Position numbers and translations under genes: made by a program. From positions 1 to 53,489 of the forward strand of contig DYOU01000008.1 of the NCBI GenBank assembly GCA_020720365.1: a stretch of DNA of 53,489 nt, given 5' to 3'. This document shows, in pieces, positions 1,045 through 53,096 of this stretch (the stretch's first letter is position 1; each line of letters opens with the position of its first letter). The DNA is from Candidatus Elulimicrobium sp. (GTDB lineage: Bacteria; Omnitrophota; Gorgyraeia; Zapsychrales; Fredricksoniimonadaceae). The notes beneath the pieces are model-generated. The model was not told the origin of the DNA. It did not search any database and saw only the letters and a program-made list of their open reading frames with translations.

Positions 1045-1057
1045 TAGAGGAGTGAGT

Positions 1058-1633
1058 ATGAGGGGTTTAAATATTTTTTTACTTTCAGTGGTCATGGTGG
1101 CAGCTTTAACAGCATCCGGCTGTGCTCAGTCGGAAAGAAAGGAAGGATCCGTTGTGAAAGAAAATATTGTATTGGAAACAAGTCAGGGTGAGATCGAATT
1201 GGCTCTATTTGATGATGCAGCGCCAAAAACATGTGAGAATTTCCGTAGCCTGGTGAAGAAGGGGTATTATAACGGCATTATTTTTCATCGTGTTATTGCG
1301 AATTTTATGATCCAGGGAGGCGATCCGACCGGGACTGGCCGTGGCGGAGAGAGTATTTGGGGCCGGCCTTTTGAAGATGAGTTTAGCTCGGAATTGAAGT
1401 TTAACCGTATGGGTATTCTGGCGATGGCGAATGCAGGCCCCAATACAAATGGCAGTCAGTTTTTCCTGACTTTGGCGCCGACGGCGTGGTTGAACGGAAA
1501 GCATACGATATTTGGAGAAGTTGTTAAAGGTTTAGATGTGATGCATAAGATTGAAGTGACCCCTAAAGGTCCTGGTGATCGTCCGAGCGAGGATCAGAAA
1601 ATTATTAAAGCGTATTTTAAGACGATGGAATAA
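1058..1633 (+). CDS. Peptidyl-prolyl cis-trans isomerase, cyclophilin type, predicted lipoprotein
   Basis: Cyclophilin motifs [22 protein letters not shown] and [11 protein letters not shown]; lipobox TASGC after start at ATG 1058. Confidence 0.9.
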
Positions 1634-1676
1634 ATAATCGTGGAAAACCGGGGGAGAACGTCGGGGGTAGGTTTCT

Positions 1677-2642: not shown

Positions 2643-2868
2643 AGGGAAGGATTATCTCAAAAAAATAAATAAATGCAATAACAGGTATTGTATCAGCCCT
2701 TAGGGGGCAATTTTTCCCCTTTGGCTTAACGATCGAACTTAAAGCCGCGATTAATCCATAGATTTTGTTGACCAGGCATAAAGATAAATGTAATGAATAT
2801 TGCTATAAGCTTATTGCTTTGTATAATTTTGATGATATTTTGCATTTGTATAGGGTATAATCCTGACT

Positions 2869-4341: not shown

Positions 4342-4344
4342 GCG

Positions 4345-5718: not shown

Positions 5719-5723
5719 GCCCT

Positions 5724-6362
5724 GTGGAGATCCGCCCCTATCGGTCTTTTGATCGGGAAGCGGTCAGGAGGATTGCCCTCGCGACGGCAATGATGGGCAG
5801 GCCGTCATCATTGTTCTTTAAGGGGGAGGATCTTTTTGCGGATGCCTTGACACAGTATTTTACTGATTATGAACCGGAGTCATCTTTTGTTGCAGTAGCT
5901 GATCAGGGTACGGTAGGCTATATTATTGGAGCAAGGGATACCCGTGTGATGGAGGCAAGGTCAAGGGAGAAATTGTTATTACCGTTGATAGGGAAGGCAT
6001 GGATGTCCGGGACATTATTATGTAAAAAGAACCTTCGTCTTCTGTCGCAGGTGATCCTTCCGGCGTTTTGTGGCCGCCTTGCAGTTCCGGATTTTTATGA
6101 GGGATATCCTGCCACTCTGCATATCAATCTTTTATCCGGGGTGCGCGGAGTGGGATTGGGAGGGAAGTTAATAGAAGCTTTTTTGAATTATTTACGCAGG
6201 ATGAATGTGGGCGGTGTACATATGGCGACAATGTCAGAGGCGGCAGGGCGATTCTTCGTCAGGCAGGGGTTTAGCCTGTTGTATCGTTCCAGTCGTCCGT
6301 ATTTTCATCATGTGATCGGGGAAGATGTCCCTTTGCTTATTTACGGGAAACGGCTCGTGTGA
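5724..6362 (+). CDS. GNAT family N-acetyltransferase
   Basis: GTG start; acetyl-CoA-binding-like LLSGVRGVGLGGKLIEAFL and C-terminal GVHMATMSEAAGRFFVRQGFSL. Confidence 0.75.
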   Translation: MEIRPYRSFDREAVRRIALATAMMGRPSSLFFKGEDLFADALTQYFTDYEPESSFVAVADQGTVGYIIGARDTRVMEARSREKLLLPLIGKAWMSGTLLCKKNLRLLSQVILPAFCGRLAVPDFYEGYPATLHINLLSGVRGVGLGGKLIEAFLNYLRRMNVGGVHMATMSEAAGRFFVRQGFSLLYRSSRPYFHHVIGEDVPLLIYGKRLV

Positions 6363-6400
6363 AACGAAAGCAGAGGGTTTTCGGGTGGAGATAGCAGTTT

Positions 6401-7261
6401 ATGCAGGATAATATTGAACGGTTCTTGAAGTATATGGAGATCGAAAAGAATTATTCTGCGCATACTTTATTGAATTATCGTCTGGACCTGGAAGATTTTT
6501 ATACTTTTCTGGGGCATGATAAGATGGCAGATGTAGATTATCCTGTCCTTCGGCGTTTCTTGGCAGAGCTTCGCGCTCGGGAGCTTAAGCCGCGCAGTGT
6601 GGCCCGGAAACTGTCGTCATTAAGGTCTTTTTTCAGGTATTTACAGCGTGAAGGTGCTATTCAGAAGAATCCGGCGGCGTTGCTTGTTACGCCGAAATTA
6701 AATAAAGTGCTACCTCATTTTCTGACGGAGGAAGAGGCGGTTCATCTGCTGGAGTCTCCGCAGGAGGATATCAGTGGTGAACTGAGGGATAAGGCCCTCT
6801 TTGAGACAATGTATTCTTCAGGGATCCGTGTCAGTGAGCTGGTCGGTCTAAGCGCGCAGGACATTGATTTTGAAGGGCATATGATCAAAGTGTTTGGTAA
6901 GGGAAAGAAGGAACGTATTGTTCCGATCGGTGAGAAAGCCATCGCCGCGATCAGGGGCTATCTTGCTGTTCGCAAGAAACCGGAGGATGCTGTTTTTTTG
7001 AACAGGTCCGGGACCCGGTTGTCCACGCGTAGTGTACGCAATAGTATCAATAAATATATTAAAAAAGCGGCGATCATGCAGAAAGTTCATCCACATATGT
7101 TTCGGCATTCGTTTGCCACCCATCTGCTGAATCATGGAGCGGACCTTCGTTCAGTACAGGAATTGTTGGGGCATGTTAATCTGTCAACAACGCAGATATA
7201 TACTCATTTGACGACCGAGAAGTTAAAAAGTATTTATGATAAGGCACATCCGAGGGCATAG
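6401..7261 (+). CDS. xer: Tyrosine recombinase XerC/XerD type
   Basis: N-terminal SAM-like domain plus catalytic residues in YSSGIRVSELVGL, HMFRHSFATHLLNHGADLRSVQELLGHVNLSTTQIYTHL. Confidence 0.92.
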   Translation: MQDNIERFLKYMEIEKNYSAHTLLNYRLDLEDFYTFLGHDKMADVDYPVLRRFLAELRARELKPRSVARKLSSLRSFFRYLQREGAIQKNPAALLVTPKLNKVLPHFLTEEEAVHLLESPQEDISGELRDKALFETMYSSGIRVSELVGLSAQDIDFEGHMIKVFGKGKKERIVPIGEKAIAAIRGYLAVRKKPEDAVFLNRSGTRLSTRSVRNSINKYIKKAAIMQKVHPHMFRHSFATHLLNHGADLRSVQELLGHVNLSTTQIYTHLTTEKLKSIYDKAHPRA

Positions 7262-7266
7262 ATCGT

Positions 7267-8529
7267 ATGGCTGTTGTATTTAATATTCTATTCAGTATTT
7301 ATTTCGTTCTCTATCTGCCTTTCTTGTTATTACGAGGGAAATGGCACATGGGTTTTTGTCAACGCTTCGGTTTTTTGCCGTCAGAGCTGGTGACGAAACT
7401 ATCTCAGGGGGAGAATATATGGCTGCATGCGGTGAGTGTAGGCGAAGTGGCCGCTATGGAAGGCGTGATCGATGCGTTACGCCGGAAATATCCTGAGCGC
7501 CGGATCGTTCTGACGGTAACAACGAAAGCAGGGTATTCATTCGCTCAAAGGAAGTGTCAGGGGCTGGCCGAAGTCGTCTGGTCTCCTTTGGATTTGAGCC
7601 CTACGGTGGATCGCTTTGTGCAGGTGATACGCCCTGTTATCTATATTGCGGCAGAAACAGAGCTTTGGCCGAACCTGTTTGCCCGATTATCCCGGGACAA
7701 GACGCCGATCATTGTGTTGAATGGGCGTATTTCGGATATTTCCTTTCCGCGTTATTCTGTTGTGAAAGGGGTGTTGAAAGGCACGTTACGGCGAGTGGCG
7801 TACTTTGGTATGCAGAGTGCTCTTGATGCGGAGCGTATTATTGAGCTTGGCGCCCTTAAAGATACGGTGAGAGTGCTCGGGAATGTAAAATTTGACAGTA
7901 TTATTGATGCTGGCTCTGCCGACCTTCGGGGAGAGGGCCTTGCGCGAGAGCATCTGCTGCTGGTCGCCGGGAGTACTCATCCGGGTGAGGAAGAGGTTAT
8001 GTTGGATATCTTCCAGTCTCTTAAGAGGAGTTCTCCCTTAATTCGGCTGGTTTTGGCGCCGAGGCATCCAGAGCGGAGCGCTCAGGTGGGAGAGTTGGTC
8101 CGGCAGGCGGGATTACGACCTGTTTTCTTCTCCAGGAACGGGAGGGTTACTGTTCAGGACGATGTGATGATCGTTGATACGATCGGATATCTGTTGCAAT
8201 TTTATTCAGCCGCATCGGTTGTATTTGTCGGAAAAAGCCTGACGGTACACGGAGGTCATAATATTATTGAACCGGCTATGTTCGCGAAACCGATCGTGGT
8301 CGGGCCGCATATGCAGAATTTCAAGGACATTGTCCAGGCTTTTCTTATGGAGCATGCCGTCATTCAGGTTGAAGATGCTTTAGGGTTAAAGACGGCTATT
8401 CAGCAGTTGCTGCAAAACGAGCCTCTTAGAAAAGATCTGGGGGATAAAGCAAGAATGGTTGTTCGCCGTAATCGCGGGGCAGTTGAACGGGCGGTCGGGA
8501 TGATTGAGGCTGTGTTAAAAGACAAATGA
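7267..8529 (+). CDS. waaA: 3-deoxy-D-manno-octulosonic acid (Kdo) transferase
   Basis: IWLHAVSVGEVAA, ETELWPNLF, LGNVKFD, GSTHPGEEE, LAPRHPERS, GGHNIIEPAMFAKPIVVGPHMQNF. Confidence 0.95.
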   Translation: MAVVFNILFSIYFVLYLPFLLLRGKWHMGFCQRFGFLPSELVTKLSQGENIWLHAVSVGEVAAMEGVIDALRRKYPERRIVLTVTTKAGYSFAQRKCQGLAEVVWSPLDLSPTVDRFVQVIRPVIYIAAETELWPNLFARLSRDKTPIIVLNGRISDISFPRYSVVKGVLKGTLRRVAYFGMQSALDAERIIELGALKDTVRVLGNVKFDSIIDAGSADLRGEGLAREHLLLVAGSTHPGEEEVMLDIFQSLKRSSPLIRLVLAPRHPERSAQVGELVRQAGLRPVFFSRNGRVTVQDDVMIVDTIGYLLQFYSAASVVFVGKSLTVHGGHNIIEPAMFAKPIVVGPHMQNFKDIVQAFLMEHAVIQVEDALGLKTAIQQLLQNEPLRKDLGDKARMVVRRNRGAVERAVGMIEAVLKDK

Positions 8530-9584
8530 AAAGAATTATTAATTATTTAACAGCTGTTGCATTGGATCGTGAACAAGGCCTTGGCGCTTTGTGTTTAAAG
8601 CCGATATTGTTTGTTCTATCCTTGATCTATCGGCTGGGAGTTGTGTTCATGCGCCGGTTGTATAGTGTGGGGCTTTTGCCATCTTTTCGGGCATCTGTTC
8701 CCGTCATTAGTATCGGAAATATTACTGCTGGAGGGACGGGTAAAACACCGTTTGTCGTTACGCTTTTTCGCTTGCTTAAAGCAGAAGGTTTTAATCCGAT
8801 GGTCTTAACGCGCGGATATATGGCTGGGCAGGGGGGCGTTAGCGATGAGGCCGAGATGCTGAAGGAGTTGATCGGGCCGATCGTTTTCGTCGGTGCGAAC
8901 AGGGTACGAATATTTCAAGAAGCTTTTGTTCAAGGGGGTTTCGATTGTGTTATTCTGGATGATGGTTTTCAACATTGGAGTTTTGTCAGGGATCTGGATA
9001 TTGTTCTTTTGGATAGCGAGGCCCCGTTCGGTAATGGATCATTGATCCCCTGTGGCATTCTTCGTGAACCTGCCGCAGCGTTGAGAAGGGCGGGTGTTAT
9101 CGTTCTGACGAGATCTGATCAGGTCAGCTCGGGGGCCCTTTCGCAGCTCAAGTCTCGAGTAAAGCAGATCAATCCTGCTGCGGTCGTGGGAGAGGGTATT
9201 CATGCATTCGCTAGCGCCTGGGATATAGACAGTGCTCAATTCTTCTCTGTTAAAGATAGCCCCGGGCCGGCAGGTGCTTTTTGCGCGATCGGGTCACCGG
9301 AAAGCTTTCAACGAACGCTCCTTGGGATGGGTGTGGAGATTAAATATTTTGAGGCTTTTGCAGATCATTACCGCTTCACGGCTATCGATGCACAGAGGAT
9401 CAGCCAGGAATGCCGGTTAAAAGATCTGAAGATTATTTTTATTACGCACAAGGATGCTGATAAAGTGAAGCTTGTTCGTAAGGCTTTTTCAGGGGTAAAG
9501 ATTGTCACTATTGGGATTGAGTTTCAATTAACTTATGGCAAGACTGACATCATTTCAAGCCTCCGCCGCCTGCGCTGTCCTTAA
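8526..9584 (+). CDS. lpxK: Tetraacyldisaccharide 4'-kinase
   Basis: VISIGNITAGGTGKTPFV (Walker A), LDDGFQHWSFVRDLDIVLLD, PCGILREP, ITHKDADK. Confidence 0.94.
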   Translation: MKRIINYLTAVALDREQGLGALCLKPILFVLSLIYRLGVVFMRRLYSVGLLPSFRASVPVISIGNITAGGTGKTPFVVTLFRLLKAEGFNPMVLTRGYMAGQGGVSDEAEMLKELIGPIVFVGANRVRIFQEAFVQGGFDCVILDDGFQHWSFVRDLDIVLLDSEAPFGNGSLIPCGILREPAAALRRAGVIVLTRSDQVSSGALSQLKSRVKQINPAAVVGEGIHAFASAWDIDSAQFFSVKDSPGPAGAFCAIGSPESFQRTLLGMGVEIKYFEAFADHYRFTAIDAQRISQECRLKDLKIIFITHKDADKVKLVRKAFSGVKIVTIGIEFQLTYGKTDIISSLRRLRCP

Positions 9585-11505
9585 GGTTTTGTCGGTGGTC
9601 TTCATGGTTCTTCCGTTAGGGCTCGCCCTGTGGCTTGGCCGTCGGCTGGGGGAAGCGGCTTATGGACTTAATCCTGGAGGCCGCCGCAAGGTGTATCAGC
9701 ATCTTCGTATTGCTTTTGGTCAGACCAGACCGGCAAGGCAGATCGATCAGCTGGTATGGGATATACATCGTTCCTATGGCCAAAACGTTGTTGAGATCGC
9801 ACGGCTTCCTTTAGTCGCAAGAAAAGGTTTTCAGGGGATCGTTGATATCGAAGGCCGGGAGTTTGTTGACGCTCTTTTAGCGAAAGGCCGCGGATTGATA
9901 TTTCTGTCGATTCATTCTGGAAATTGGGAGCTTTCGAATATGGTCGGAAGCCTGGTAGGGTATCCGTATAACATGGTTGCCAATTATCTCGAGCACGTTA
10001 ATCGTGTGGCAGATCTGCTGGATTCCTGGCGAATGAGTGGTGGGTGTAAGATCATTAATCCCGGGATCGGTGGCCGTGACATTATCAGGGCTCTTAAACG
10101 CAATGAGATCGTGACGCTTGTATCTGATCAGGGAGGAAGTGATGGCATGATGGTTCCCTTTTTCGGCCGGGAGGCGTCCATGTCAAATGGAGCTGTCAGG
10201 ATAGCCCTTAAATATGATGTGCCGCTTTGTTTGGTTGATATTCATCGTCTTTCTAATGGACGACATTGTTTAAAAGTGCTGCCATTTGAAATGAGCAAGA
10301 CGGTTGACACGGATGCCGATGTAAGACGTAATATGACGCGTATCGCGCAGCAGTTCCAGTTGTGGACCGAGCAACATCCGGCCGAGTATTTATGGTTTTA
10401 TAAGACATGGAAATATGCCCGTGACCGGCGTGTGATTATCCTGGACGATGGAAGGACGGGGCATTTGCGTCAGTCCCAGGCTTTGGCGCGCCAGGTTTCT
10501 TGTGTTATGGGTGAGCGGAACCTGGATCCGCGAGTGGATAGTGTGCGTGTGGAATGGCGCAGCGAATATGCCGCGGCTGTTTTGGGTTGGCTTACGTTTT
10601 TAAGGCCATTTATCGGAGGGTTGGGGTTGCGGGTTTTGCGGCTACTTTTGACGGATGAAAGTTATGCTCTCTTGAGTTCCTTTAAACCGGATGTTGTTAT
10701 TTCTTGTGGAGCAAAGAACTCCTGTTTGAATCGCTGGCTGGCGGCAGATAACGATGCGCGCAGCATTTGTGTCATGCGTCCTTTCGGACAGGACCTGGCG
10801 AATTACGACCTGGTGGTTATGCCCCGACATGACAGCAAGGGAATTGTATCATTGAATACTGTTTTAACAAAAGTAGCTCCTAATTTGATGGATAAAACGT
10901 ATCTTGAGGAAAATGTGCGTGGGTTAACGGCGAGGTTTTCTCATTTGAAGTTGCATAGCCGCCCCAGGATAGGGTTGTTGATCGGTGGCGATACGAAGGG
11001 GCTGGTATTGACGGAACAGCAGGTGCGGGTGGTGATCCATCAGTTGAAAGAGTCTGCGGAGAAGTTCAGCGCGGATATTCTTGTGACAACATCTCGCCGT
11101 ACAAGCAGTGATGTTGAAGCTCTGGTCATTCGTGAATTCAATCATTATTCGCGCACGGCATTGCTGATCCTGGCGAGCAAGAATAATGTACCGGAAGCTG
11201 TTGGCGGTATTCTTGGTTTATCGGATATTGTTATTGTATCCGGTGAGAGTATTTCCATGTTGTCAGAAGCGGCAACTTCAGGCAGGAAGACTGTTGTTTT
11301 TCCGGTGGATGGGCCGGACCGGACGCCTTTGAATAACAAGTATTCCCGTTTCGCAGAAATGCTTGGCGATGCTGGACATGTCGTGTGCGCACGGACGACG
11401 CGGGTGGCTGATGCTGTGGACAGGCTGCTTCGGGATAAAGTGAAGACAATTCCCATAGATGATAATGCGGTTATTTTGGAAGCCGTTAGAAAGATCATAC
11501 GATGA
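9535..11505 (+). CDS. Two-domain protein: lipid A acyltransferase (LpxL/HtrB family) fused to an ELM1-like (DUF1022) domain
   Basis: N-terminal half: LSIHSGNWELSNMVGS, LVSDQGGSDGMMVPFFGREASMSNGAVRIALK. C-terminal half: VIILDDGRTGHLRQSQALARQV, PDVVISCGAKN, RIGLLIGGDTKG, SESISMLSEAATSGRKTVVFP-like region. Confidence 0.82.
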   Translation: MARLTSFQASAACAVLKVLSVVFMVLPLGLALWLGRRLGEAAYGLNPGGRRKVYQHLRIAFGQTRPARQIDQLVWDIHRSYGQNVVEIARLPLVARKGFQGIVDIEGREFVDALLAKGRGLIFLSIHSGNWELSNMVGSLVGYPYNMVANYLEHVNRVADLLDSWRMSGGCKIINPGIGGRDIIRALKRNEIVTLVSDQGGSDGMMVPFFGREASMSNGAVRIALKYDVPLCLVDIHRLSNGRHCLKVLPFEMSKTVDTDADVRRNMTRIAQQFQLWTEQHPAEYLWFYKTWKYARDRRVIILDDGRTGHLRQSQALARQVSCVMGERNLDPRVDSVRVEWRSEYAAAVLGWLTFLRPFIGGLGLRVLRLLLTDESYALLSSFKPDVVISCGAKNSCLNRWLAADNDARSICVMRPFGQDLANYDLVVMPRHDSKGIVSLNTVLTKVAPNLMDKTYLEENVRGLTARFSHLKLHSRPRIGLLIGGDTKGLVLTEQQVRVVIHQLKESAEKFSADILVTTSRRTSSDVEALVIREFNHYSRTALLILASKNNVPEAVGGILGLSDIVIVSGESISMLSEAATSGRKTVVFPVDGPDRTPLNNKYSRFAEMLGDAGHVVCARTTRVADAVDRLLRDKVKTIPIDDNAVILEAVRKIIR

Positions 11506-13595
11506 AAATCTTACAGATACTCCCTGAAATGAATGTTGGCGGTGTGGAGAGGGGGACTCTCGATCTGGCTAAATATATTTCGGCTCATGGCCATCATTCC
11601 ATTGTTGTTTCAAATGGAGGGTCTCTTGTGCCTTCGCTTGAAGCCTCAGGGACTCGGCATTATACCCTTCCGGTGCATGAAAAGAACCTGTGGACGATGA
11701 TCGAATCTATGAAGTCTCTTGAAAAGATCATTCGAGATGAGAAAGTTGATATTGTTCACGCTCGGTCACGCGTACCGGCATGGATCGCTTTCTTTGCCTG
11801 TCGCAGAACGGGAGTTGATTTTGTTACCACGTGTCATGGGTATTATTCCCAGAATATTTTCAGCCATGTGATGGGCTGGGGGAAGCGCGTGATCGTTATT
11901 AGCGAGATCATTGGCAGGCATATGATCGACCATTTTGGTGTTCAGTCGGACAATATCAGGCTTATTCATCGGAGCGTGGACCTTGAGAAGTTCTCGTTTC
12001 GTCAGAGGCAGTCAGGCCTTTCTTCTTTTACGGTAACGATCGTAGGTCGTATCACTCCGCTTAAAGGGCATGTGTATTTCTTGAAGGCTATGGCAAAGGT
12101 CATTCGTCAATTTCCCTATGTGCGGGTACAGGTGATTGGCGATGCGCGCGCAGACAAGCAGGCTTATAAAGAAAATATCCTTTTGTTAACAAAACGGCTG
12201 GGGATACAGGACAAGGTTCATTTTATGGGGAATCGAAGGGATATCCCTCAGTTGTTGGCGGACAGTGATGCTTTGGTTCTTTCAACAATCACACAAGAAG
12301 CTTTTGGCCGCGTTATTATTGAAGCCCAGGCTATCGGCGTTCCTGTCGTGGCGACAAAGGTGGGAGGGGTTGTCGATATTGTAGAACATGAAAAGACGGG
12401 GTTATTAGTCCTGCCGAAAGATCCGGATGCGATCGCTTCAGCTGTTTTACGATTAATGAATGACAGAAAGCTGGGAGATGCGATGGCAATGGAAGCGCGT
12501 CGTCTGGTTGAGGGAAAATATACGCTGGATCAGATGGCGCTTAAAACATTAGCTGTGTATGATGAAGTCAAACATTCGCTTAATATCCTTGTGATCAAAT
12601 TAAGTGCTGTAGGCGATGTGATCCTGGTAACGGCTTCCCTTAAAGCCTTGAGAGACAAGTTCCCGCGGGCACATATTTGCTGTCTGGCCGGAAGGGAAAG
12701 TGCGGCCATTCTTCATCATTGTCCTTATATTAATGATGTTATTGTTTATGACCATAAGGGGAAGGACCGTGGCTTGATCGGTTTCTGGAAATTGCTTGTG
12801 CGGTTGCGTAAATTCCGTTTTGACAGGATCATTGATTTCCAGAATAATATGCGGACGCATATATTGGCTTTTTTGTGTATGCCGCGGGCCAGTTATGGAT
12901 ACAGGAATGACAAGCTTGGGCAGTTGCTGTCGCACGGTATCCCTGATGACCGGCCTGACCTTCCGTCGGTCGAGCATCAGTTTCGTGTTCTTAATGAGTT
13001 GGAGATTGTTTATGATGATACGGTCCGTCTTGAACTTTGGCCAAGGCCAGATGATGAGGCTTATGCCGGAGAGATCTTGCAGGGTGAATGGATTGAGCTT
13101 GGCCGTCATAAAGTTGTCGGGATCAATATTTCCGCTTCAGAGCGCTGGGGCACAAAAAATTGGCCGATGAGCACAATGGCTGAATTATGCGATCTGTTAG
13201 CGGCAGATAATATTCGCGTCATTATTACCGGGATGGAGAAAGACAAGGCGTTTGCCCGAGAACTGGCAGGGCGGATCAAATCAAAACCGTCTTTTATTAT
13301 TGGTAAAACAACAGTCCTGCAGTTGGCGGCTTTGATCAAGTGTTGTAATGTGTATTTAACCAGTGATTCGGCTCCACTTCATATTGCTGCGGCGATGGGT
13401 GTCCCTGTCGTGGCTCTTTTTGGGCCGACAGACCCCAAGCGGCATATCCCCCCGGCAGACAGGTTGGTGGTCATCAGAAAAGAAATGCCGTGTTCTCCGT
13501 GTTACAAGACCAAATGTAAATCAGACGCGCATTCGTGTATGAAGGGGATCACAGCCCAGGAAGTTTATTCTCAAATAAAGAAGCTGATGACATGA
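11502..13595 (+). CDS. Two-domain glycosyltransferase: GT4 fused to GT9 (heptosyltransferase-like)
   Basis: GT4 half: LPEMNVGGVERGTLDLA, ITPLKGHVYFLKA, EAFGRVIIEAQAIGVPVVATKVGG. GT9 half: NILVIKLSAVGDVILVTASLKALRDKFP, YLTSDSAPLHIAAAMGVPVVALFGPTDPKRHIPP. Confidence 0.88.
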   Translation: MKILQILPEMNVGGVERGTLDLAKYISAHGHHSIVVSNGGSLVPSLEASGTRHYTLPVHEKNLWTMIESMKSLEKIIRDEKVDIVHARSRVPAWIAFFACRRTGVDFVTTCHGYYSQNIFSHVMGWGKRVIVISEIIGRHMIDHFGVQSDNIRLIHRSVDLEKFSFRQRQSGLSSFTVTIVGRITPLKGHVYFLKAMAKVIRQFPYVRVQVIGDARADKQAYKENILLLTKRLGIQDKVHFMGNRRDIPQLLADSDALVLSTITQEAFGRVIIEAQAIGVPVVATKVGGVVDIVEHEKTGLLVLPKDPDAIASAVLRLMNDRKLGDAMAMEARRLVEGKYTLDQMALKTLAVYDEVKHSLNILVIKLSAVGDVILVTASLKALRDKFPRAHICCLAGRESAAILHHCPYINDVIVYDHKGKDRGLIGFWKLLVRLRKFRFDRIIDFQNNMRTHILAFLCMPRASYGYRNDKLGQLLSHGIPDDRPDLPSVEHQFRVLNELEIVYDDTVRLELWPRPDDEAYAGEILQGEWIELGRHKVVGINISASERWGTKNWPMSTMAELCDLLAADNIRVIITGMEKDKAFARELAGRIKSKPSFIIGKTTVLQLAALIKCCNVYLTSDSAPLHIAAAMGVPVVALFGPTDPKRHIPPADRLVVIRKEMPCSPCYKTKCKSDAHSCMKGITAQEVYSQIKKLMT

Positions 13596-34713: not shown

Positions 34714-35991
34714 ATGATAGACCCTTCTGTTTATGAGAATGTTAAAGCACGCTTGCACAGGCACCTGATTTCAAAGACAAATTTTATTCAAGAGAAAGAT
34801 GCTCTTAATGAGGATCAAATTAAGATCTGGGTGGACAATGCGATCACCGCTTTATGCCAGGAGAGTGATATCGTTATTACACTAGAAGACCGGGCCAGGT
34901 TGATCCGAGAAGTCTCAGGGTCTGCCAGCAACCTTGGTCCTATTCGGCCGCTGCTTGATGACAAGGATGTTTCCGAAATTATGGTGAACGGGTATCGTCA
35001 TGTTTACGCTCAAAAAGCCGGGAAGATGTATTTAACAGATATTAAATTTGATAATAATGTTCATTTAATGCACTCTATTCAAACGTTATTAACGACATCT
35101 GGAACGTCACGGCGTGTGGATAAGTCATCGCCTTATGTTGATTTTTCCCTCACAGATGGTTCTCGAGTCAATGTTCTTTTACCGCCCTGTTCGTTGAGTG
35201 GCCCGGTGATGACTATTCGTAAATTCTCCAGGGATATATCAACGCTTGAGAATCTGATCGAGCTGGGAATGTTAAATCGTTCTATGGCGGCATTTCTGGT
35301 TGCCGCTATGAAGGCAAAGCTTAACGTAGTTTTTTGCGGTCCGACAGGGTCAGGTAAAACAACCATTCTCAATGTGCTTTCGCAGCATATCCCTAATGAA
35401 GAACGGGTGATTACAATTGAAGATACTTCTGAACTTCATTTGTTGCAGGAGCATGTTGTTGCGTTGCAGTCAAAACCGTCCAATATTGAAGGAAAAGGTG
35501 CTGTTTCTATCAGGGATCTTTTTATTAATTCACTTCGCATGAGGCCTGATCGTATTATTGTCGGTGAGGTTAGAGGTGAAGAGATCCTTGATATGATCCA
35601 GTCCATTAGTTCAGGGCATTCAGGAATGCTGGCCATTATTCATGCTGATTCACCAGAAGAATGTTTCAGTCGTATGATCACTATGATGTTGATGTCCGGT
35701 ATTCGGCTTAATGGAGACCAGATCCGCCGGCAGATAGCGACTTCAGTGGATCTTATTGTGCATAGTGAATTATTCCTGGACGGGGTGCGCCGGGTGGCAA
35801 ATATTACAGATTTGCGCTACGATAAAGAAACAGATCGGGTAACATTGGAGGATATATTTAGTTTCAAACAAGAGCGAATTGATGATACCGGAAGAGTGCA
35901 GGGCGCCTGGATGATGAATCGCAAACTGCCTTCATTTGTCGACAAGTTTGTTAAAAGAAATGTGCGGTTACCGCAGGATTTTCTACAATAG
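34714..35991 (+). CDS. CpaF/TadA-type secretion ATPase, orphan
   Basis: RPLLDDKDVSEIMVNGYRHVYAQKAGKM, CGPTGSGKTTILNVLSQHIPNEERVITIEDTSELHL, LRMRPDRIIVGEVRGEEILDMIQSISSGHSGMLAIIHADSPEE. Confidence 0.9.
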   Translation: MIDPSVYENVKARLHRHLISKTNFIQEKDALNEDQIKIWVDNAITALCQESDIVITLEDRARLIREVSGSASNLGPIRPLLDDKDVSEIMVNGYRHVYAQKAGKMYLTDIKFDNNVHLMHSIQTLLTTSGTSRRVDKSSPYVDFSLTDGSRVNVLLPPCSLSGPVMTIRKFSRDISTLENLIELGMLNRSMAAFLVAAMKAKLNVVFCGPTGSGKTTILNVLSQHIPNEERVITIEDTSELHLLQEHVVALQSKPSNIEGKGAVSIRDLFINSLRMRPDRIIVGEVRGEEILDMIQSISSGHSGMLAIIHADSPEECFSRMITMMLMSGIRLNGDQIRRQIATSVDLIVHSELFLDGVRRVANITDLRYDKETDRVTLEDIFSFKQERIDDTGRVQGAWMMNRKLPSFVDKFVKRNVRLPQDFLQ

Positions 35992-45362: not shown

Positions 45363-45725
45363 TTACATGGCGCTTTTGGCGGCCATTGACATTATTTCAT
45401 GAGGATTTAGCGGTTTAATAATATATCCTGATGCTCCTTTTCGTACGGCTTCAATGGCTTCGTCTTCTTCGTTCTGATCTCCCAATGCAATAATAATGAG
45501 TGAAGGTTCTTGTTTACGCATGGCGGCAAAAATATTTTCGCCATCAGCATTAAGGCTGTTATTTGTTCCCATAAAGACAAGGGCAGGTTTCTTCTTTTCG
45601 CCGATCATCTTTAATGCGTGAGACGGCGATTCAAGGATGATGAGTGGATAAGTATTCGATAAGATCTTCTTTAATAGGTCTCTGCTGATCTCATTGGTAT
45701 CTGCAATAAGGATAGTTTTTGGCAT
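45363..45725 (-). CDS. Stand-alone receiver-like (REC) domain, apparent pseudo-receiver
   Basis: KTILIADTNEISRDLLKKIL…PALVFMGTNNSLNADGENIFAAMR…EDEAIEAVRKGASGYIIKPLNPHEI; phospho-acceptor Asp position appears to be Gly. Confidence 0.75.
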   Translation of the reverse strand: MPKTILIADTNEISRDLLKKILSNTYPLIILESPSHALKMIGEKKKPALVFMGTNNSLNADGENIFAAMRKQEPSLIIIALGDQNEEDEAIEAVRKGASGYIIKPLNPHEIMSMAAKSAM

Positions 45726-45726
45726 A

Positions 45727-46275
45727 TTAGAGGGTTACCGGTGTCAGGACTGAAAGAAATTTGACTGTTGTAGTATATGGATTTTCAAAATGATGCGGGA
45801 AAGACGCATTAAAATAGAGAGATGTGTGGGATGTAAGTTTTATAGATTGATCTTTAACGTGTGCGGTCAGGGATCCTTCAAGTATCCAAACGAAACGCTC
45901 GGAACCTGGCGGAAACTTTTCAATGCCGGAGATTCCTTTACCTTCTATCTTAATAAGGGTTGGCAGCATTCTTTTGCTGGTAGCTTGTCGAGACAGGATT
46001 TCACGGGACACTTTTTCATTAGGAGCTGAAATCGCTTCAATGTTTTCTTCTGATATGATAGGAATGGATTCATTCTCTTGCATGCCTTGATAAAGCTCGG
46101 ATATATCAAGACCGAGCGCTTTTGCGATCATAAAATGAGATTGCAATGTGCCGGTCATTTTCCCATTTTCAATACGTGAAAGAGTCGCGATCTGTACTCC
46201 ACTGTCTTGGGAGAGAGTCGTAAGAGAAATTTTCTTTAGTTTGCGAATCTTTTTGATTTGTATGCCAATATTCAT
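45727..46275 (-). CDS. XRE-family HTH regulator with C-terminal cupin domain
   Basis: HTH: IGIQIKKIRKLKKISLTTLSQDSGVQIATLSRIENGKM; cupin: PPGSERFVWILEGSLTAHVKDQSIKLTSHTSLYFNASFPHHFEN. ATG 46275 preceded by AAAGGAGG. Confidence 0.88.
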   Translation of the reverse strand: MNIGIQIKKIRKLKKISLTTLSQDSGVQIATLSRIENGKMTGTLQSHFMIAKALGLDISELYQGMQENESIPIISEENIEAISAPNEKVSREILSRQATSKRMLPTLIKIEGKGISGIEKFPPGSERFVWILEGSLTAHVKDQSIKLTSHTSLYFNASFPHHFENPYTTTVKFLSVLTPVTL

Positions 46276-46389
46276 AACATTCCTCCTTTGTATTATTCTA
46301 AATAATTTTAACACATCTTGAGGATTAATCAACAATTTGTCGACGAGTAAAAATTAGTTCATTATTATTGATTTTTAGTTAAAATATAT

Positions 46390-47040: not shown

Positions 47041-47092
47041 AATAATTGAGTTGGTTTGATTATTAAGATTAATGGAATGTCAGGAGGGTATT

Positions 47093-47524
47093 ATGAATCG
47101 AAAAGGGTTTTCATTGATTGAATTAGCCATAGCATTGGGCTTAGTGGCGGTATTAGTGAGTGTTGTTACAGCTGGCGGAGGGATGATGGCTAAAAGCCGT
47201 ATTCATCGGGAAATGGTGGCTGTTGATACGATCAGGATCGCGGCCCAAAATTATTTATCATCAAGAAATTTAACGTATAACGGCATCAGTGTTGAGGTGC
47301 TTAAGGCGGCGGGATTGTTGCCCTCAAGCTTTGATCCGATCAAGTCTAATTCCTATGGAGGTGATTATAGCGTCAGAGTTAATGATGCGGATATGACTCG
47401 GGTTGATATTGTTCTTGCGAATATTCCGGATACAGCGGGAGAAGATCTTTCCAATACATTCAAGAATAAGGCGGAATTGATCTCATATGATAAATCGAGA
47501 CGGGTCTGGCAGGCTACCTTTTGA
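47093..47524 (+). CDS. Type IV prepilin-like protein, resembles a type IVb major pilin (PilS-like)
   Basis: Short leader MNRKG|FSLIELAIALGLVAVLVSVV; C-terminal region LKAAGLLPSSFDPIKSNSYGGDYSV…; SD AGGAGGG upstream of ATG 47093. Confidence 0.78.
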   Translation: MNRKGFSLIELAIALGLVAVLVSVVTAGGGMMAKSRIHREMVAVDTIRIAAQNYLSSRNLTYNGISVEVLKAAGLLPSSFDPIKSNSYGGDYSVRVNDADMTRVDIVLANIPDTAGEDLSNTFKNKAELISYDKSRRVWQATF

Positions 47525-47954
47525 TCGGCGAGGGTATACGTTATTTGAATGTGCTTTAGGTTTGTCGATCAGTGTTATTCTGGTTGTTCTTGTCGCTTGT
47601 TCCTTTAGAAGTTCTTTGGATGCAGCGCGTGCTTCTCGTGTATTGCTAGAGATGCGGTCGATTCTTCAGGCGGCAAGAAGTTATTATGATTCTAAGGGAG
47701 TATGGCCGGTCAATATGCTGGATGTTAAGAGTTTCTTGTTGAAAAGCCCGCTTGAGAATGCATGGGGGCATGTATATCAGTTATCCCCGCAGGGGATGCG
47801 GTTTCAAGTTGACACGGAAGTCCCGGATTCAATTTCTTTACCAGTGGGGGAATGGGGTATGGTTACCGAGAGTCGAATGGTGAACGGTAAAAGATGGCAG
47901 ATGAGTGTTCCTTTATCTTATGGTAGAGCGGCAAGGCTTAAATATGAAGAATAA
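47487..47954 (+). CDS. Minor prepilin-like protein
   Basis: Leader ending RRG|YTLFECALGLSISVILVVLVA; globular part ARSYYDSKGVWPVNMLDVKSFL…FQVDTEVPDS. Confidence 0.72.
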   Translation: MINRDGSGRLPFDRRGYTLFECALGLSISVILVVLVACSFRSSLDAARASRVLLEMRSILQAARSYYDSKGVWPVNMLDVKSFLLKSPLENAWGHVYQLSPQGMRFQVDTEVPDSISLPVGEWGMVTESRMVNGKRWQMSVPLSYGRAARLKYEE

Positions 47955-48852
47955 TGGTTTTACGCTTCTTGAATTGGCTATTGTTCTTTCTACGGCAGCG
48001 ATCATTTCAAGTGCTGTTGTGCCTTCTTTTGTACGAAATATGTATGTAGAGGCATCTAAGAAATCAGCTTTGGAAGTTTCTCAAATTCAAGAAGCTTCTC
48101 GGGCTTATTACGTAAAGAATAAAAAGTGGCCTCAGGCTGTCAGTCATCTACAAACAGACGGTTATCTTGATCCAGCCTGGCCAGGTCATAATCCCTTTGG
48201 AAAAGGTTATGGACTGGAACAGCAGGGATTGTCTTTATTAGTGAAGACAGAAGTTCCTGAAGAAGTAGCAGGTGTCATGATGGGTCTTTTACCAATGTCA
48301 TCACGAGATGGGGTCAACGTTGTTTCTAATATTCCGGTTCCAGGAGTTGAATCTGAGAATATTCCGTTGGGAGCTGTTCTTCCCTGGCCGAGTGGAGATA
48401 TCCCTGTTGGGTGGATGTTATGTGACGGTCGGTCAGTTTCACGAGTTGATCACGCGGGATTGTTTTCATTGATTGGAGAAAGTTATGGAGGGGGTGATGG
48501 GACCGCAACGTTTAATCTTCCGGATCTGCGTGGCCGTGTCGTCGCAGGGGTGGATGATATGGGAGGGAGTGCCGCAAATATAATACAGGGTCATTGGGCA
48601 CGGCAGCTTGGCGGAAAAGGCGGCGAGGCTGAGCATCAATTAACCATATCTGAGATGCCCAGCCATCAGCATTTCGGGTTTGGGGAAAATATTCCAGGAT
48701 GGGGTAATGGGACATTGGGTCCTAATAATCATCAGGGGCCGGACTCCGGGGATCATGATAATTATATGCTTGGGACAACACCCTCTGGTGGGGGTGATGC
48801 TCATAATATTATTCAACCAACATTGATGATGAATTGGATTATTAAAGGATAA
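47944..48852 (+). CDS. Prepilin fused to a C-terminal phage tail-collar domain; candidate pilus-tip adhesin (PilV-like architecture)
   Basis: N-terminus MKNNG|FTLLELAIVLSTAAIISSAVV (class III signal); C-terminus PLGAVLPWPSGDIPVGWMLCDGRSVSRVDHAGLFSLIGESYGGGDGTATFNLPDLRGRVVAGVDD…LGGKGGEAEHQLTISEMPSHQH…NIIQPTLMMNWIIKG is a full tail-collar signature. Confidence 0.9.
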   Translation: MKNNGFTLLELAIVLSTAAIISSAVVPSFVRNMYVEASKKSALEVSQIQEASRAYYVKNKKWPQAVSHLQTDGYLDPAWPGHNPFGKGYGLEQQGLSLLVKTEVPEEVAGVMMGLLPMSSRDGVNVVSNIPVPGVESENIPLGAVLPWPSGDIPVGWMLCDGRSVSRVDHAGLFSLIGESYGGGDGTATFNLPDLRGRVVAGVDDMGGSAANIIQGHWARQLGGKGGEAEHQLTISEMPSHQHFGFGENIPGWGNGTLGPNNHQGPDSGDHDNYMLGTTPSGGGDAHNIIQPTLMMNWIIKG

Positions 48853-48865
48853 GGGTATCAAGTGT

Positions 48866-49762
48866 ATGCGGTGGAATATAGTGGTTGCGGGTGGTTTATG
48901 TATATCGGCATTGAGCGCTTGGGGACATGCTGAAAGTTTGGCTGTTTTGGCGGGACGTGCGGATACGCATTGTATCGATGCCTCCTCGACAGGTCAGGTA
49001 TGCCGGAGAGCTTCACCTCCCTATGTTGGAATAAAAATGCGTTATTGGCAGCCGGTCTTGTTAGTTGAAACTGTCAAAAGACCGGGAGATACAGTTGTTA
49101 ATGAATTTAGATCTTATGTAGGGCAGTCATTACGACAAGCAGTGGCGGCGGCTATGCATGTTGAGCCTGAATTGGTAGATAGCGGGTCTTCAGGATCGAT
49201 CGACACAACATTTGTTCAGATGAATGATGTGCACGTATTCGGGTTTCCTTTTTCAGATATCTTTTCTGGTGGAGTTGAGCCGGTATGTGAAGGCCCTCCG
49301 GACTTTACCGGGATTGTAAGTTATTTAACTGAGTTGGATGCTGTTGAGTGGCGCACGATGAAGAATGAAAAGAATCATTGGGGGGCATTAATAACGAATA
49401 GAGTGATGCCGCGTTGTGATGGATCAGACCTATCGATCTCGGGGTTATGTATGGGAGTATGGGGAGCACTATATCCTCGTGGAGGATTTGTGAGTGGGTA
49501 TAGCCCAGCGGTAGGGTCAGCGGCAGCAGCGTTTCGTGCTGTTAGTATCGCGGCTGATCCAGTTATTTCATTGCATCGCCGGTTGATCCCGATTCAGTTT
49601 TCTCCGAATATCCTGTGGGACCGTATGCAAATGGTTTACCCTGGGAGAAGCGGATGTTTAGAGATAGGTGAAGACCCGCGTTATTGGGAAGATGGTAAAG
49701 TTTCCTCTGATGGAAAGTATGCATGGATATACTGGCGAAAAAAAGAGTGCTGTTTGTTTTAA
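48866..49762 (+). CDS. TraU-like protein resembling the TIGR03756 (PFL_4710-type) integrating conjugative element family
   Basis: MRYWQPVLLVETVKRPG, YLTELDAVEWRTMKNE, GVWGALYPRGGFVSG…SAAAAFRAVSIAADP, W..M…SGCLEIGED…SSDGKYAWIYWRKKECC match remembered family hallmarks; signal peptide present. Confidence 0.75.
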   Translation: MRWNIVVAGGLCISALSAWGHAESLAVLAGRADTHCIDASSTGQVCRRASPPYVGIKMRYWQPVLLVETVKRPGDTVVNEFRSYVGQSLRQAVAAAMHVEPELVDSGSSGSIDTTFVQMNDVHVFGFPFSDIFSGGVEPVCEGPPDFTGIVSYLTELDAVEWRTMKNEKNHWGALITNRVMPRCDGSDLSISGLCMGVWGALYPRGGFVSGYSPAVGSAAAAFRAVSIAADPVISLHRRLIPIQFSPNILWDRMQMVYPGRSGCLEIGEDPRYWEDGKVSSDGKYAWIYWRKKECCLF

Positions 49763-50076
49763 TTTGGGTATTCCATTTTGGGAGTATCAGGTCAGCCGCC
49801 GCCAATGAACGGTTGCCCTGGTATAGATTAGCAAAAATTGATTTCTTTGAGGGTATCTCTTCAGGTGAAGTGAAACAAACATCGTTTACAGCAGAAGAGT
49901 TATGGAGTGAAGTGAGTATATCGGCAGGAGGAGAGATCCGGGTGGCGTATCCCCCTTATCCGGTGGTGGAATTCCTTGATGCCCCGACTTTAGAAACGGG
50001 GAAGAGGTATTTAGAATGGAATGCGGTTCGTTTTGAGAAATTGCGGCAGGCTCAGGAAGTTTTGGAACAATTATAA
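49723..50076 (+). CDS. Small secreted protein, possibly related to the N-terminal part of TraF-type conjugation proteins
   Basis: Signal peptide; C-terminal PPYPVVEFLDAPTLETGKRYLEWNAVRFEKLRQAQEVLEQL resembles the pre-thioredoxin helical region of TraF-like proteins. Confidence 0.5.
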   Translation: MDILAKKRVLFVLIWVFHFGSIRSAAANERLPWYRLAKIDFFEGISSGEVKQTSFTAEELWSEVSISAGGEIRVAYPPYPVVEFLDAPTLETGKRYLEWNAVRFEKLRQAQEVLEQL

Positions 50077-50098: not shown

Positions 50099-50539
50099 AT
50101 GTTCATAAAATTAACAATGATGATTATGCTGGTTTTGGGATGGGGTGCATCCATTTATGCACAAGAAGGTGCGGTGAATTTATCTGATGCCAGGGATCAG
50201 GTCAGGGAAGAACAACGCAGGGAAGGCGAGATACAGATGATGCGGTTAGAGTTGGAAAAACTTAAGATTGAACTTGAAACGCGTCAAACAAAGGCTTCTA
50301 TAGGGAATATTGGGGGAGTTTCGTCTTCAATGGATAGAACGATGCCTGTTGATATTGATGTGGAAAGCATTGTTTTGATGCCTTCAGAGGCTCGGGCTGT
50401 TATCAGGATAGATGGTGAGCGCCGGTCGATCAAAGAAAATGATACAGCAGGGATTTATCTAATCAAGAAGATAAATAGAGAGGATGTAATATTGATTGAT
50501 AATAAAGGCGTGGAACTAACTCTGAGTGTCAAACAATGA
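50099..50539 (+). CDS. PilP-like type IVb pilus biogenesis protein
   Basis: Signal peptide, coiled-coil, then HR/GspC-like beta domain VESIVLMPSEARAVIRIDGERRSIKENDTAGIYLIKKINREDVILIDNKGVELTLSV. Confidence 0.65.
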   Translation: MFIKLTMMIMLVLGWGASIYAQEGAVNLSDARDQVREEQRREGEIQMMRLELEKLKIELETRQTKASIGNIGGVSSSMDRTMPVDIDVESIVLMPSEARAVIRIDGERRSIKENDTAGIYLIKKINREDVILIDNKGVELTLSVKQ

Positions 50540-52077
50540 GTAATCAGTTTATTGGTACTTTGTTGATCAATACAGGGGCTTTGTTCAAGCAGGAGTTAGA
50601 GTATGCGCTTGCACTTCAAGTTGCTTCAGGTGGTCGTTCCAAGATTGGCACCATTCTGATTGAACAGGGGTTTTCAGAGAAAGAGTCTGTGGCGCGTTCT
50701 TTAGCCGTACAAGCTGGGTGGCCTTATTATTGTAAAGGCTACGATCCAGATCCAAGGATGGTGCGTGAACTGGGGTTGACGTTCATCCAGGAGAATCATA
50801 TTTTCCCTTTGATCGGACAGGATGTCCCTGCATTTGTTATGCCGGACAGCGATAATACAAGAGTAACAGATTTCTTGCGTTCACGGTTTGGGGGAGAGGT
50901 TAGGTTTTATATAGGTATTGAAGCTGAAATTCTTACAGCGATTTCATTGTTGAAGAAAGAATGTACGCCGAAAGCTGAAATTGAGGCAAGCGATGTTAAA
51001 TCTATATTGGCAGCAGCCATATTAAGGGGTGCGACTGATATTCATATTGAGCCGTCAGAAACAACGGTGGATATCCGGTTGCGGTTAGATGGTGTTTTAC
51101 AATTTTATCGATCTTTCCCAAGGTCGGAGTTATCACGGATTGTTAATATTTTCTTTAATCGTTCTGGTATTAGCGCAGGAGACTTTTTTCATTTTCATGA
51201 TGCCCGTTTTGAAGAGGATTATTCAGGGAATAAGATTGATGTGCGTTTATCGCATATACCTTCAATGAATGGTTCGTCGTTGGTGTTACGGTTGTTGAAC
51301 AAGTCCAGGAGTGCTTTCGGGTTAGCTGATTTGGGATACTCTGATGATAATCAGCGACAGCTGATGCAGGCAGTTAAACGTCCACATGGTCTTATTTTGT
51401 TTACGGGGCCGACAGGTTGCGGTAAAACAACCAGTTTATATTCTTTATTGGGTAATTTGAAAGGGTTGGGGGTCAAGGTTGTCACAGCTGAAGATCCGGT
51501 TGAGGTTCAGCTGCCTTTGGTCACTCAGGTCTCAGTTGATTTACGAAGGGAGCAGGATTTTCATCATGTTACCCGTGCTTTATTAAGACATGATCCAGAT
51601 ATTATATTGATTGGTGAAGTGCGTGATGAGAAGACCGCGCGTGAAGCGGTGCGAGCGGCAGTTACAGGGCATAGAGTTTTAGCCACACTTCATACGAATG
51701 ATGTTGTGAGTGCGATCCTCAGGCTTAATGATTTGGGAATTGATTATACTCAATTAAGTCATACATTAACGTGTATTGTTTCTCAACGGTTAGTTCGCAT
51801 CTTGTGTCCAAAGTGTAAGAAAAAGTCTGATAAGCCAAATGAATATATCCCGGTAGGATGTTCTGTATGTTATGGAGGTTTTAAAGGGCGTAAGGTTATT
51901 GCAGAGGTCATGTGTATTGGTCCTGAATACAGGATATTGATTGAGAAGGGTCTGATACAGGAGGTTTTTTCACAGTATATCTCGTGTAAAGAAGGGATAA
52001 CGATGAGGGAAAGCGCAGAATCGTTGATACGCAATGGGCAAATTTCACGATGTGAACTCGAAAGGATTTTAGGGTAA
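50536..52077 (+). CDS. GspE/PilB/PilQ-type secretion-pilus assembly ATPase
   Basis: ATDIHIEPSETTVDIRLRLDGVL, FTGPTGCGKTTSLYSLL, TAEDPVEVQLPLVTQV, LRHDPDIILIGEVRDEKTAREAVRAAVTGHRVLATLHTND, CPKC…CSVC zinc motif. Confidence 0.95.
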   Translation: MSNQFIGTLLINTGALFKQELEYALALQVASGGRSKIGTILIEQGFSEKESVARSLAVQAGWPYYCKGYDPDPRMVRELGLTFIQENHIFPLIGQDVPAFVMPDSDNTRVTDFLRSRFGGEVRFYIGIEAEILTAISLLKKECTPKAEIEASDVKSILAAAILRGATDIHIEPSETTVDIRLRLDGVLQFYRSFPRSELSRIVNIFFNRSGISAGDFFHFHDARFEEDYSGNKIDVRLSHIPSMNGSSLVLRLLNKSRSAFGLADLGYSDDNQRQLMQAVKRPHGLILFTGPTGCGKTTSLYSLLGNLKGLGVKVVTAEDPVEVQLPLVTQVSVDLRREQDFHHVTRALLRHDPDIILIGEVRDEKTAREAVRAAVTGHRVLATLHTNDVVSAILRLNDLGIDYTQLSHTLTCIVSQRLVRILCPKCKKKSDKPNEYIPVGCSVCYGGFKGRKVIAEVMCIGPEYRILIEKGLIQEVFSQYISCKEGITMRESAESLIRNGQISRCELERILG

Positions 52078-52079
52078 TT

Positions 52080-53096
52080 ATGTTAATGTTATCGATATTA
52101 TTTAAAGATATTTCAAATATGCTTTTATCAGGGATCACATTGGATCATGCCTTAAGAACATTAAGTGAAAGTGCTGTTGAAGCAGAGTCTCGAAAGATGT
52201 GCCAGTTGTCTTTGGCAGAACTGCAGAAAGGGCGGTCGTTTGGAGGGTCAATGGCAGTGTCTGGGCTTTTACCGAGGGAAGCGCTGTTAGCGATAGAAGC
52301 AGGAGAGATTGCGGGTGAATTATCGATGGTTTTGTTGATGTTAGGCGAATATTTCGAGCTGAGATCGGAAATGAAGAAGAAATTTCTTTCAGCATTGACA
52401 TATCCGATGATTGTTATGGGGATATTGTTGGTGGTTCTGTGTTATGTTGTTTTTGAGGTTATCCCTAAGGTTTCTGATTTATTACCTTCAGGGGCGATGG
52501 CATCTCCCATGACATTATCGCTTATGGCTGGAGCGGGTTTCTTGAAGGGCAATGTAACGGTCATTTGTTTTTTTATTACTTTACTTATTATAGGGGTGTT
52601 GGGTCTTTTACGATTTAATCCTGGTTTTTATAGGGAGATTCTTTCACGAATCCCTTTAGTGGGGCAGATCCTTAAAGAGAGAGAGTTATCATTGGGGTTC
52701 TTTGCTTTATATGTATTACAAAAAAGTGGGATCCCTCTATCGCTTGCTTTGCGCGAGGCGTCTAAGGTGGCAGGCGGACAGACACAGCGGCATATGGAAG
52801 GGTGTTCATTATATCTTATTGGAGGGTTAAGTTTATCAGAGGCCGTAAGGCGGAATAAATATTTTCCGCGCTTCACCGCTGATACGTTGCGTATCGGGGA
52901 AGAATCGGGACGCTTTGAAGAATATTTTGAACGACTTTATAGGATATTTTATCGTTCATTTCAGGCAAGAATGGAATATTTATCCGTTCTCATCAGGCCT
53001 GCACTGCTGATTATGGCATCCGGATTCATTGTTTTCATCGCGCTTGGATTCTTTCAGCCGTTATATGGGAGCCTTTCATTAATTGCCTCGCCATGA
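52080..53096 (+). CDS. GspF/PilC/PilR-type inner-membrane platform protein
   Basis: LFKDISNMLLSGITLDHALRTLSE, AIEAGEIAGELSMVLLMLGEYFELRSEMKKKFLSALTYPMIVM, TADTLRIGEESGRFEEYFERL. Confidence 0.92.
   Translation: MLMLSILFKDISNMLLSGITLDHALRTLSESAVEAESRKMCQLSLAELQKGRSFGGSMAVSGLLPREALLAIEAGEIAGELSMVLLMLGEYFELRSEMKKKFLSALTYPMIVMGILLVVLCYVVFEVIPKVSDLLPSGAMASPMTLSLMAGAGFLKGNVTVICFFITLLIIGVLGLLRFNPGFYREILSRIPLVGQILKERELSLGFFALYVLQKSGIPLSLALREASKVAGGQTQRHMEGCSLYLIGGLSLSEAVRRNKYFPRFTADTLRIGEESGRFEEYFERLYRIFYRSFQARMEYLSVLIRPALLIMASGFIVFIALGFFQPLYGSLSLIASP

Follow-up and report, generated by a model that had tools for sequence, protein, structure and literature searches.

Why a bacterial prepilin should end in a phage tail-collar domain is the question raised by a gene of Candidatus Elulimicrobium sp., a member of the Omnitrophota. 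The stretch of DNA analysed here (53,489 nucleotides, hereafter the window) is an entire contig, DYOU01000008.1, of a MAG that is 86% complete. A preliminary description of this locus had reported a class III prepilin N-terminus and a pilin-like segment that run in one frame into a full collar domain, and its core observation, a prepilin fused to a phage tail-collar domain, is confirmed (Table 1). The leader reads MKNNG/FTLLELAIVL, with Gly at position -1 and Glu at position +5. Residues 1-25 comprise the leader and the hydrophobic segment, and the match to N_methyl in the Pfam scan (21.6 bits against a cut-off of 21.2) is marginal when taken alone. F6, L8, E10, P27, W79 and N83 of the stalk are invariant in an alignment of 20 rows. 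Collar (PF07484) is matched over its whole profile with an E-value of 1.3e-20 and a score well above the cut-off of 24, and Gp10_C gives a weak match below its cut-off at residues 197-296. The strong matches in PHROGs are tail proteins and cover the collar half; the phage match H1, which spans residues 12-301, is a podovirus collar gene. The leader, its Glu5 and an N_methyl match over the cut-off thus bear out the class III prepilin N-terminus, and an unbroken frame with both domains above their Pfam cut-offs bears out the fusion. A gene for the prepilin peptidase (PF01478) is present in the same genome, on contig C106. Judged from its sequence and predicted structure, the protein is a modular prepilin in which a class III leader precedes a type IV pilin domain that is joined by a short linker to a complete gp12-like collar.

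Table 1. Features of the collar pilin locus and of the related clusters; positions are those of the window unless another contig is named.
Feature	Position	Strand	Length or basis
pil1, PilS-like prepilin	47072..47524	+	N_methyl 25.6 bits, PilS (PF08805) 22.9 bits, both over cut-off
pil2, second divergent (minor) prepilin	47487..47954	+	weak GspG/prepilin matches
pil3-collar, modular prepilin (pilin stalk + phage tail-collar domain)	47944..48852	+	302 aa; from ATG at 47944 to the end of TAA at 48852
Pilin stalk, residues 1-138 (leader MKNNG, Glu5, long helix, beta-sheet)	47944..48357	+	AF2 model and alignment
Pfam Collar core, residues 143-200	48370..48543	+	73.6 bits; Foldseek to T4 gp12 receptor-binding domain 1ocy
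HxH motif H241-Q-H243, putative metal site on three-fold axis	48664..48672	+	alignment to gp12, conservation
Variable tip cassette, residues 244-280, class II (GENIPGW..GPNNHQGP..DNYMLGTT)	48673..48783	+	tip/stalk identity decoupled across relatives
TraU family protein, F-type T4SS pilus/mating component	48866..49762	+	PF06834, 83.3 bits
orf5, secreted, homologous to N-terminal half of V. archaeovorus TraF/TrbB-like protein	49723..50076	+	
orf6, small secreted PilP-like protein	50099..50539	+	homology to L027 protein
PilB/PilQ-type extension ATPase (T2SSE)	50536..52077	+	PF00437, 320.7 bits
PilC/PilR/GspF-type inner-membrane platform	52080..53096	+	PF00482, 123.3 bits
Pilus + F-type T4SS cluster, window's genome	G000:C106 (L152) 519-12235		
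Pilus + F-type T4SS cluster, V. archaeovorus	G397:C1 ~603-629 kb (L165, L156)		

A phage-type domain that is the sole collar in its genome might be put down to a misassembly, a prophage remnant or an in-frame accident. The distribution of the gene leaves this explanation practically no probability. Its best named relatives are in Omnitrophota MAGs and in Candidatus Velamenicoccus archaeovorus LiM, and among 55 relatives searched the prepilin-collar fusion is spread over many genera within the same family, with an identity of 38-62% for the close ones. A stalk-only profile recovered 22 stalk orthologs at E 2.5e-32 or better from 384 Omnitrophota genomes, with a gap from there down to paralogous pilins at 1e-23 as the boundary; a full or short collar forms the C-terminus in 18 of them and other domains in 4. 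The same pilin-plus-collar architecture, for which the preliminary description had suggested a search, was found in about 20 Omnitrophota genomes, including the complete genome of V. archaeovorus, whose collar pilin, at about 623.4-624.3 kb of NZ_CP019384.1, is of the short-collar form. Because so many independent assemblies, one of them complete, carry the same fusion, it is no assembly accident, and the neighbouring genes, read over 13.5 kb, include none of phage type. An apparent stalk match in Lucifera (L077) proved to be a plain collar protein and was discarded. In the MAG of Bacilli bacterium RGIG8886, two tandem prepilin-collar genes (L073, 5398-7510) with the N-terminus MKRGFTLIELLASIVVIAIIS have near-identical stalks and differing tips, and this architecture is of independent origin. 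A genome of the same order as the window's (L014, G036:C42) encodes a 595-aa collar protein without a pilin part, 48% identical in the collar, which may be a prophage fibre or donor type.

For the first ~130 residues, AF2 predicts a long helix and a beta-sheet with a pLDDT of about 80-93, and the best PDB matches of the full-protein model in Foldseek are C. difficile PilA1 pilins (probability 1.00), at an E-value that is weak (1e-2) because the remainder of this model is poor. The first run, on an alignment of 11 rows, gave the collar a pLDDT below 50; a collar-only alignment of 58 rows was used instead and gave a mean of 80.2. In the PDB, this collar model matches the phage tail-fibre tips of Pa223, cyanophage A-1(L) and T4 gp12, and its viral structure matches are collar and microcystin-dependent-type proteins. 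The match to the gp12 receptor-binding domain 1ocy has an E-value of 1.2e-4, a probability of 1.00 and a TM-score that is modest, in keeping with the comparison of a single chain from a knitted trimer. In a profile alignment, the HQH of the collar pilin falls on chain positions 196 and 198 of 1pdi, which we take to be residues 250-527 of T4 gp12; these positions are the zinc-binding His445 and His447. In gp12, a zinc ion lying on the three-fold axis is coordinated by these histidines of all three chains (PMC3004832). The earlier comparison of the motif with metal-binding tail-fibre motifs therefore stands, the metal role being putative. Both histidines are at least 90% conserved among 58 collars, and the HxH and the core are the most conserved parts. 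Since its HxH aligns with the gp12 zinc ligands, the collar pilin likely forms a homotrimer. It shares the collar core, the HxH zinc motif and the knitted tip fold with the T4 short tail fibre gp12 and MdpB-like phage collar proteins but differs from them in being mounted on a pilin stalk, encoded by the pilus operon of a cell, instead of on a baseplate. Collar domains occur in non-phage proteins too, and the domain alone therefore does not prove receptor binding.

Such a homotrimer would suit a pilus tip, as the homotrimer of Vibrio cholerae TcpB has been modelled on top of a T4b pilus (PMC9565799). TcpB and CofB are likewise large T4b minor pilins expected as homotrimers at the tip (PMC9565799; PMC8179133), but their C-terminal domains are unrelated to that of the collar pilin, which would trimerise via the collar fold and the HxH metal. 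The TcpB-type trimer also carries a secreted protein on the pilus (PMC9565799). Together with the conservation of HxH and core, this would fit a collar that is a structural cap only, trimerising the minor pilin and priming assembly or plugging the secretin, with no ligand on another cell. We consider a pure cap improbable, for it would not be expected to have its outermost 30-38 residues replaced between relatives as close as L116 and L117, nor its whole domain replaced.

Replacement on the conserved stalk takes place at three levels, namely whole domain, collar type and tip cassette. The exchangeable C-terminus that had been proposed for this protein is therefore found across relatives, in which the stalk is kept and carries a full collar, a short collar or an unrelated domain. 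The whole domain is replaced in L020-L022, L124 and L125, which have the same stalk and unrelated C-termini. These C-terminal domains are 100-120 aa long, have no significant Pfam match and lie in loci without TraU; they are possibly further receptor-binding modules. The collar type is replaced between L013 (full) and L019 (short), whose stalks are 64% and cores 36% identical. The tip cassette, defined as the 30-38 residues following EMPxHxH, varies independently of the stalk across relatives. For L116 and L117, identity is 86% over the stalk and 83% over the core but 27% over the tip, whereas for L005 and L019 it is 35% over the stalk, 33% over the core and 63% over the tip. Pairwise identities of stalk and core are correlated (Spearman 0.62), whereas those of stalk and tip are not (Spearman 0.11, p 0.17). 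The three tip classes need 4 changes on the stalk tree. The AU test rejects a tree in which class I arose only once (p 0.00016), although it is weakened by the fact that the class was named after the sequences were inspected. Class I is possibly the ancestral tip, repeatedly lost. None of the three classes was found in 122 collar-bearing viral loci, by which the pilins differ from phage collar proteins, or in 76 loci of non-Omnitrophota genomes, and a tip-only tblastn search against phages returned generic collar matches. On these grounds, recent import of tips from phages was rejected for the collections searched. As the classes are absent from the viral loci, exchange seems, within the collections searched, to occur among pilins.

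The preliminary description had likened the protein to PilV. Type IVb pili of TP114 and PAPI-1 carry PilV, the C-terminus of which recognises the recipient surface before the T4SS acts; in the cases worked out the ligand is LPS, and PilV adhesins sit in pilus clusters with a T4SS on conjugative plasmids and ICEs (PMC9045228; PMC5297154). Like PilV of R64, TP114 and PAPI-1, the collar pilin is a minor prepilin beside a PilS-type pilin in a T4b-like cluster linked to a conjugation-type T4SS, and like PilV it combines a conserved stalk with an exchangeable C-terminus (PMC9045228; PMC5297154). It differs from PilV in that its C-terminus is a gp12-like collar, that it has neither a shufflon nor invertible cassettes, and that it is chromosomal, with no relaxase found and with variation between species. 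The Pfam scan gave no match to Shufflon_N (PF04917) up to E 1. The genome, with its single collar, contains no silent C-terminal cassettes, a repeat search found no suitable sfx-like recombination-site repeats around the tip, and TraU begins no more than 14 bases behind the collar pilin. Shufflon or phase variation was rejected on the basis of the repeat search and the single collar, which point to evolutionary replacement, not switching. The likeness to PilV thus holds for the adjoining PilS-like pilin and the pilus cluster with an F-type T4SS, but not for Shufflon_N, silent cassettes or repeats. Similarly, the comparison of close relatives for allele switching revealed C-termini replaced between lineages but no programmed switching in the genome. 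By analogy, the best reading is that the collar pilin would be PilV-like in action, yet not PilV. Its outer parts, presumably those that set specificity, have been replaced from one lineage to another in the course of evolution.

The collar pilin lies among genes of a type IV pilus. pil1, which lies directly upstream in relatives too, is the probable major pilus subunit; pil2, whose position is also kept in relatives, shares 33% identity with the collar pilin's stalk. orf5 is 36% identical to a 243-aa protein of LiM, itself matching TIGR02740 (TraF-like) at 5e-7, and the 155-aa homolog of orf6 in L027 has a weak match to TIGR03021 (pilP, E 0.03). Genes for a response-regulator receiver and an XRE/cupin regulator (45363-46335, minus strand) are divergent from the pilus operon; both are kept in G002 and the XRE gene is seen in G003, and they are candidate regulators of the cluster. 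A CpaF/VirB11-type ATPase gene at 34714-35991 (plus strand) stands among housekeeping genes, without Tad or T4SS neighbours.

The cluster of the window's genus lies on two contigs, C164 and C106. C106 of the window's genome holds the other half, with the prepilin peptidase, TraL (PF07178), TraE (PF05309), TraB (PF03743), TraC, a protein in the TraK/VirB9 position, a TraV-like protein, an MshL/PilN-type secretin and a homolog of LiM TraH. In G010, G015, G091 and V. archaeovorus, pilus and tra genes are contiguous and arranged as TraG_N/VirB6, (TraD-like), VirB2-like, TraL, E, K, B, V, C, lipoprotein, secretin, Pil proteins, ATPase, platform, PilS-like, pilin 2, collar pilin, TraU, TraF-like and TraH; in some genomes a member is absent, escapes recognition or falls outside the stretch that was read. 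TraK is known only by its position and a weak VirB9/CagX match, TraV is over the cut-off only in G091, and TraH is over the cut-off in V. archaeovorus. The cluster has a component set homologous to that of F-type/ICE-type T4SS (TraL-E-K-B-V-C-U-H), with TraC scoring over 380 bits to TIGR02746 (382.6 bits on C106). It differs from these in that its components fall below NCBI equivalog cut-offs and are interspersed with the genes of a complete type IV pilus operon, the secretin among them. In V. archaeovorus, the collar pilin and TraU are separated by an inserted GNAT-type gene (L156, 12356-12868, minus strand), which probably belongs to a toxin-antitoxin pair; TraU is intact. A second, distant TraC homolog (26%) is encoded at G007:C5:38722-41163 and likewise in G333, G055, G069 and G149; it is a different F-type system in the phylum.

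Of the 21 testable collar loci, 19 have TraU directly behind the collar pilin, whereas none of the 5 loci whose stalk carries another C-terminus has it there. TraC orthologs are present in 15 of 18 collar genomes against 0 of 4 others (Fisher p 0.005, uncorrected for kinship). Because the collar orthologs L015 and L126 are without TraU, the T4SS linkage is not universal. The collar pilin might serve the T4P as a general adhesin, in twitching, in aggregation or on surfaces, the T4SS neighbourhood being historical and the two machines separate. The cluster's own secretin, ATPase, platform and pilins suffice for a stand-alone pilus, the five loci with unrelated C-termini and two collar loci lack TraU/TraC, and modular adhesin pilins without a T4SS are common (PMC8179133). 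We nevertheless regard a separate adhesin as unlikely, given that TraU directly follows the collar pilin in 19 of 21 collar loci and that TraC, B, E and L are placed among pilus genes in an order conserved across several genera.

If the two machines do work together, they might form a conjugation apparatus, in which the collar pilin would select recipients for the DNA of an integrated element or of the chromosome. The complete F-type Mpf set, the TraD/TraG-like coupling ATPase found in V. archaeovorus and G091, and the PilV precedents on plasmids and ICEs (PMC9045228; PMC5297154) would agree with this. However, the relaxase families TrwC (PF08751), TraI_2 (PF07514), Relaxase (PF03432) and MobA_MobL (PF03389) had no match in the 8-9 genomes searched, the search for a fifth, Mob_Pre (PF01076), being run without a positive control, and no coupling protein was found in the window's genus at the threshold used for V. 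archaeovorus and G091. The related genomes G000, G002 and G003 also have the same chromosomal flanks, with SpoIID-SpoVG upstream and GlnB (named by eye) adjoining the platform gene downstream, which makes conjugation a doubtful function. In G010 and G015, TatC (named by eye from its sequence) follows TraH. Since such housekeeping flanks are common to several species, the cluster appears to be resident in the chromosome and not to be a mobile element.

Sequence, models and the analogy with PilV suggest that the gene probably encodes a modular minor prepilin whose phage-type trimer at the pilus tip picks target cells for the linked T4SS. The prepilin peptidase would cleave the leader of the collar pilin, and the T2SSE ATPase and the PilC/GspF-like platform would insert its stalk into the PilS-type pilus. 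As the collar domain is bulky and probably trimeric, three copies would cap the tip in the manner proposed for TcpB/CofB trimers, with collar trimerisation and a metal ion holding them together. The loops of the tip would bind a surface molecule of another cell, most likely a glycan or LPS and possibly an S-layer or other envelope glycan. Given that pilus and F-type T4SS genes share one conserved cluster, contact through the pilus may select, and perhaps draw close, a cell for the T4SS to act on; the collar pilin would thus serve the machine of this cluster as PilV serves conjugative plasmids. Omnitrophota have been proposed to be mostly predators or parasites, and V. archaeovorus has been seen attaching to and preying on cells (PMC10066038). 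The window's bacterium is probably a predator, and the target of its pilus and T4SS would perhaps be a prey cell. On a more tentative reading, which is possible but which we do not expect to hold, the relaxase-free hybrid of pilus and F-type T4SS would be a device for contact-dependent delivery into prey, its range set by lineage-swapped phage-fibre tips.

That functional modules are grafted onto pilins is already known, with 264 architectures described (PMC8179133). The modular pilins PilB (vWA) and PilC (lectin) of Streptococcus sanguinis resemble the collar pilin in their C-terminal grafted binding module and predicted tip location (PMC8179133; PMC9934059), whereas the graft of the collar pilin is a phage receptor-binding domain and would be trimeric. 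The main texts of these two papers do not mention a collar domain, and our literature search found no paper joining collar domains with pilins. In its main text, the genome survey of Omnitrophota refers to type-4a and Tad pili but to neither T4SS nor conjugation (PMC10066038). As far as the literature searched goes, three things are new: the phage collar on an Omnitrophota pilin, a tip cassette decoupled from the stalk, and the hybrid cluster of pilus and T4SS genes. The collar pilin is a single, directly testable gene bearing on prey choice in Omnitrophota, a mostly uncultured group considered to include epibiotic predators; it is present in the predator V. archaeovorus too, and its collar module has known biochemistry. 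Cellular pili would here share with phage tails a type of receptor-binding tip that is interchangeable, and if the cluster were indeed a delivery machine, predatory or parasitic Omnitrophota would swap tips among lineages much as phages swap tail fibres.
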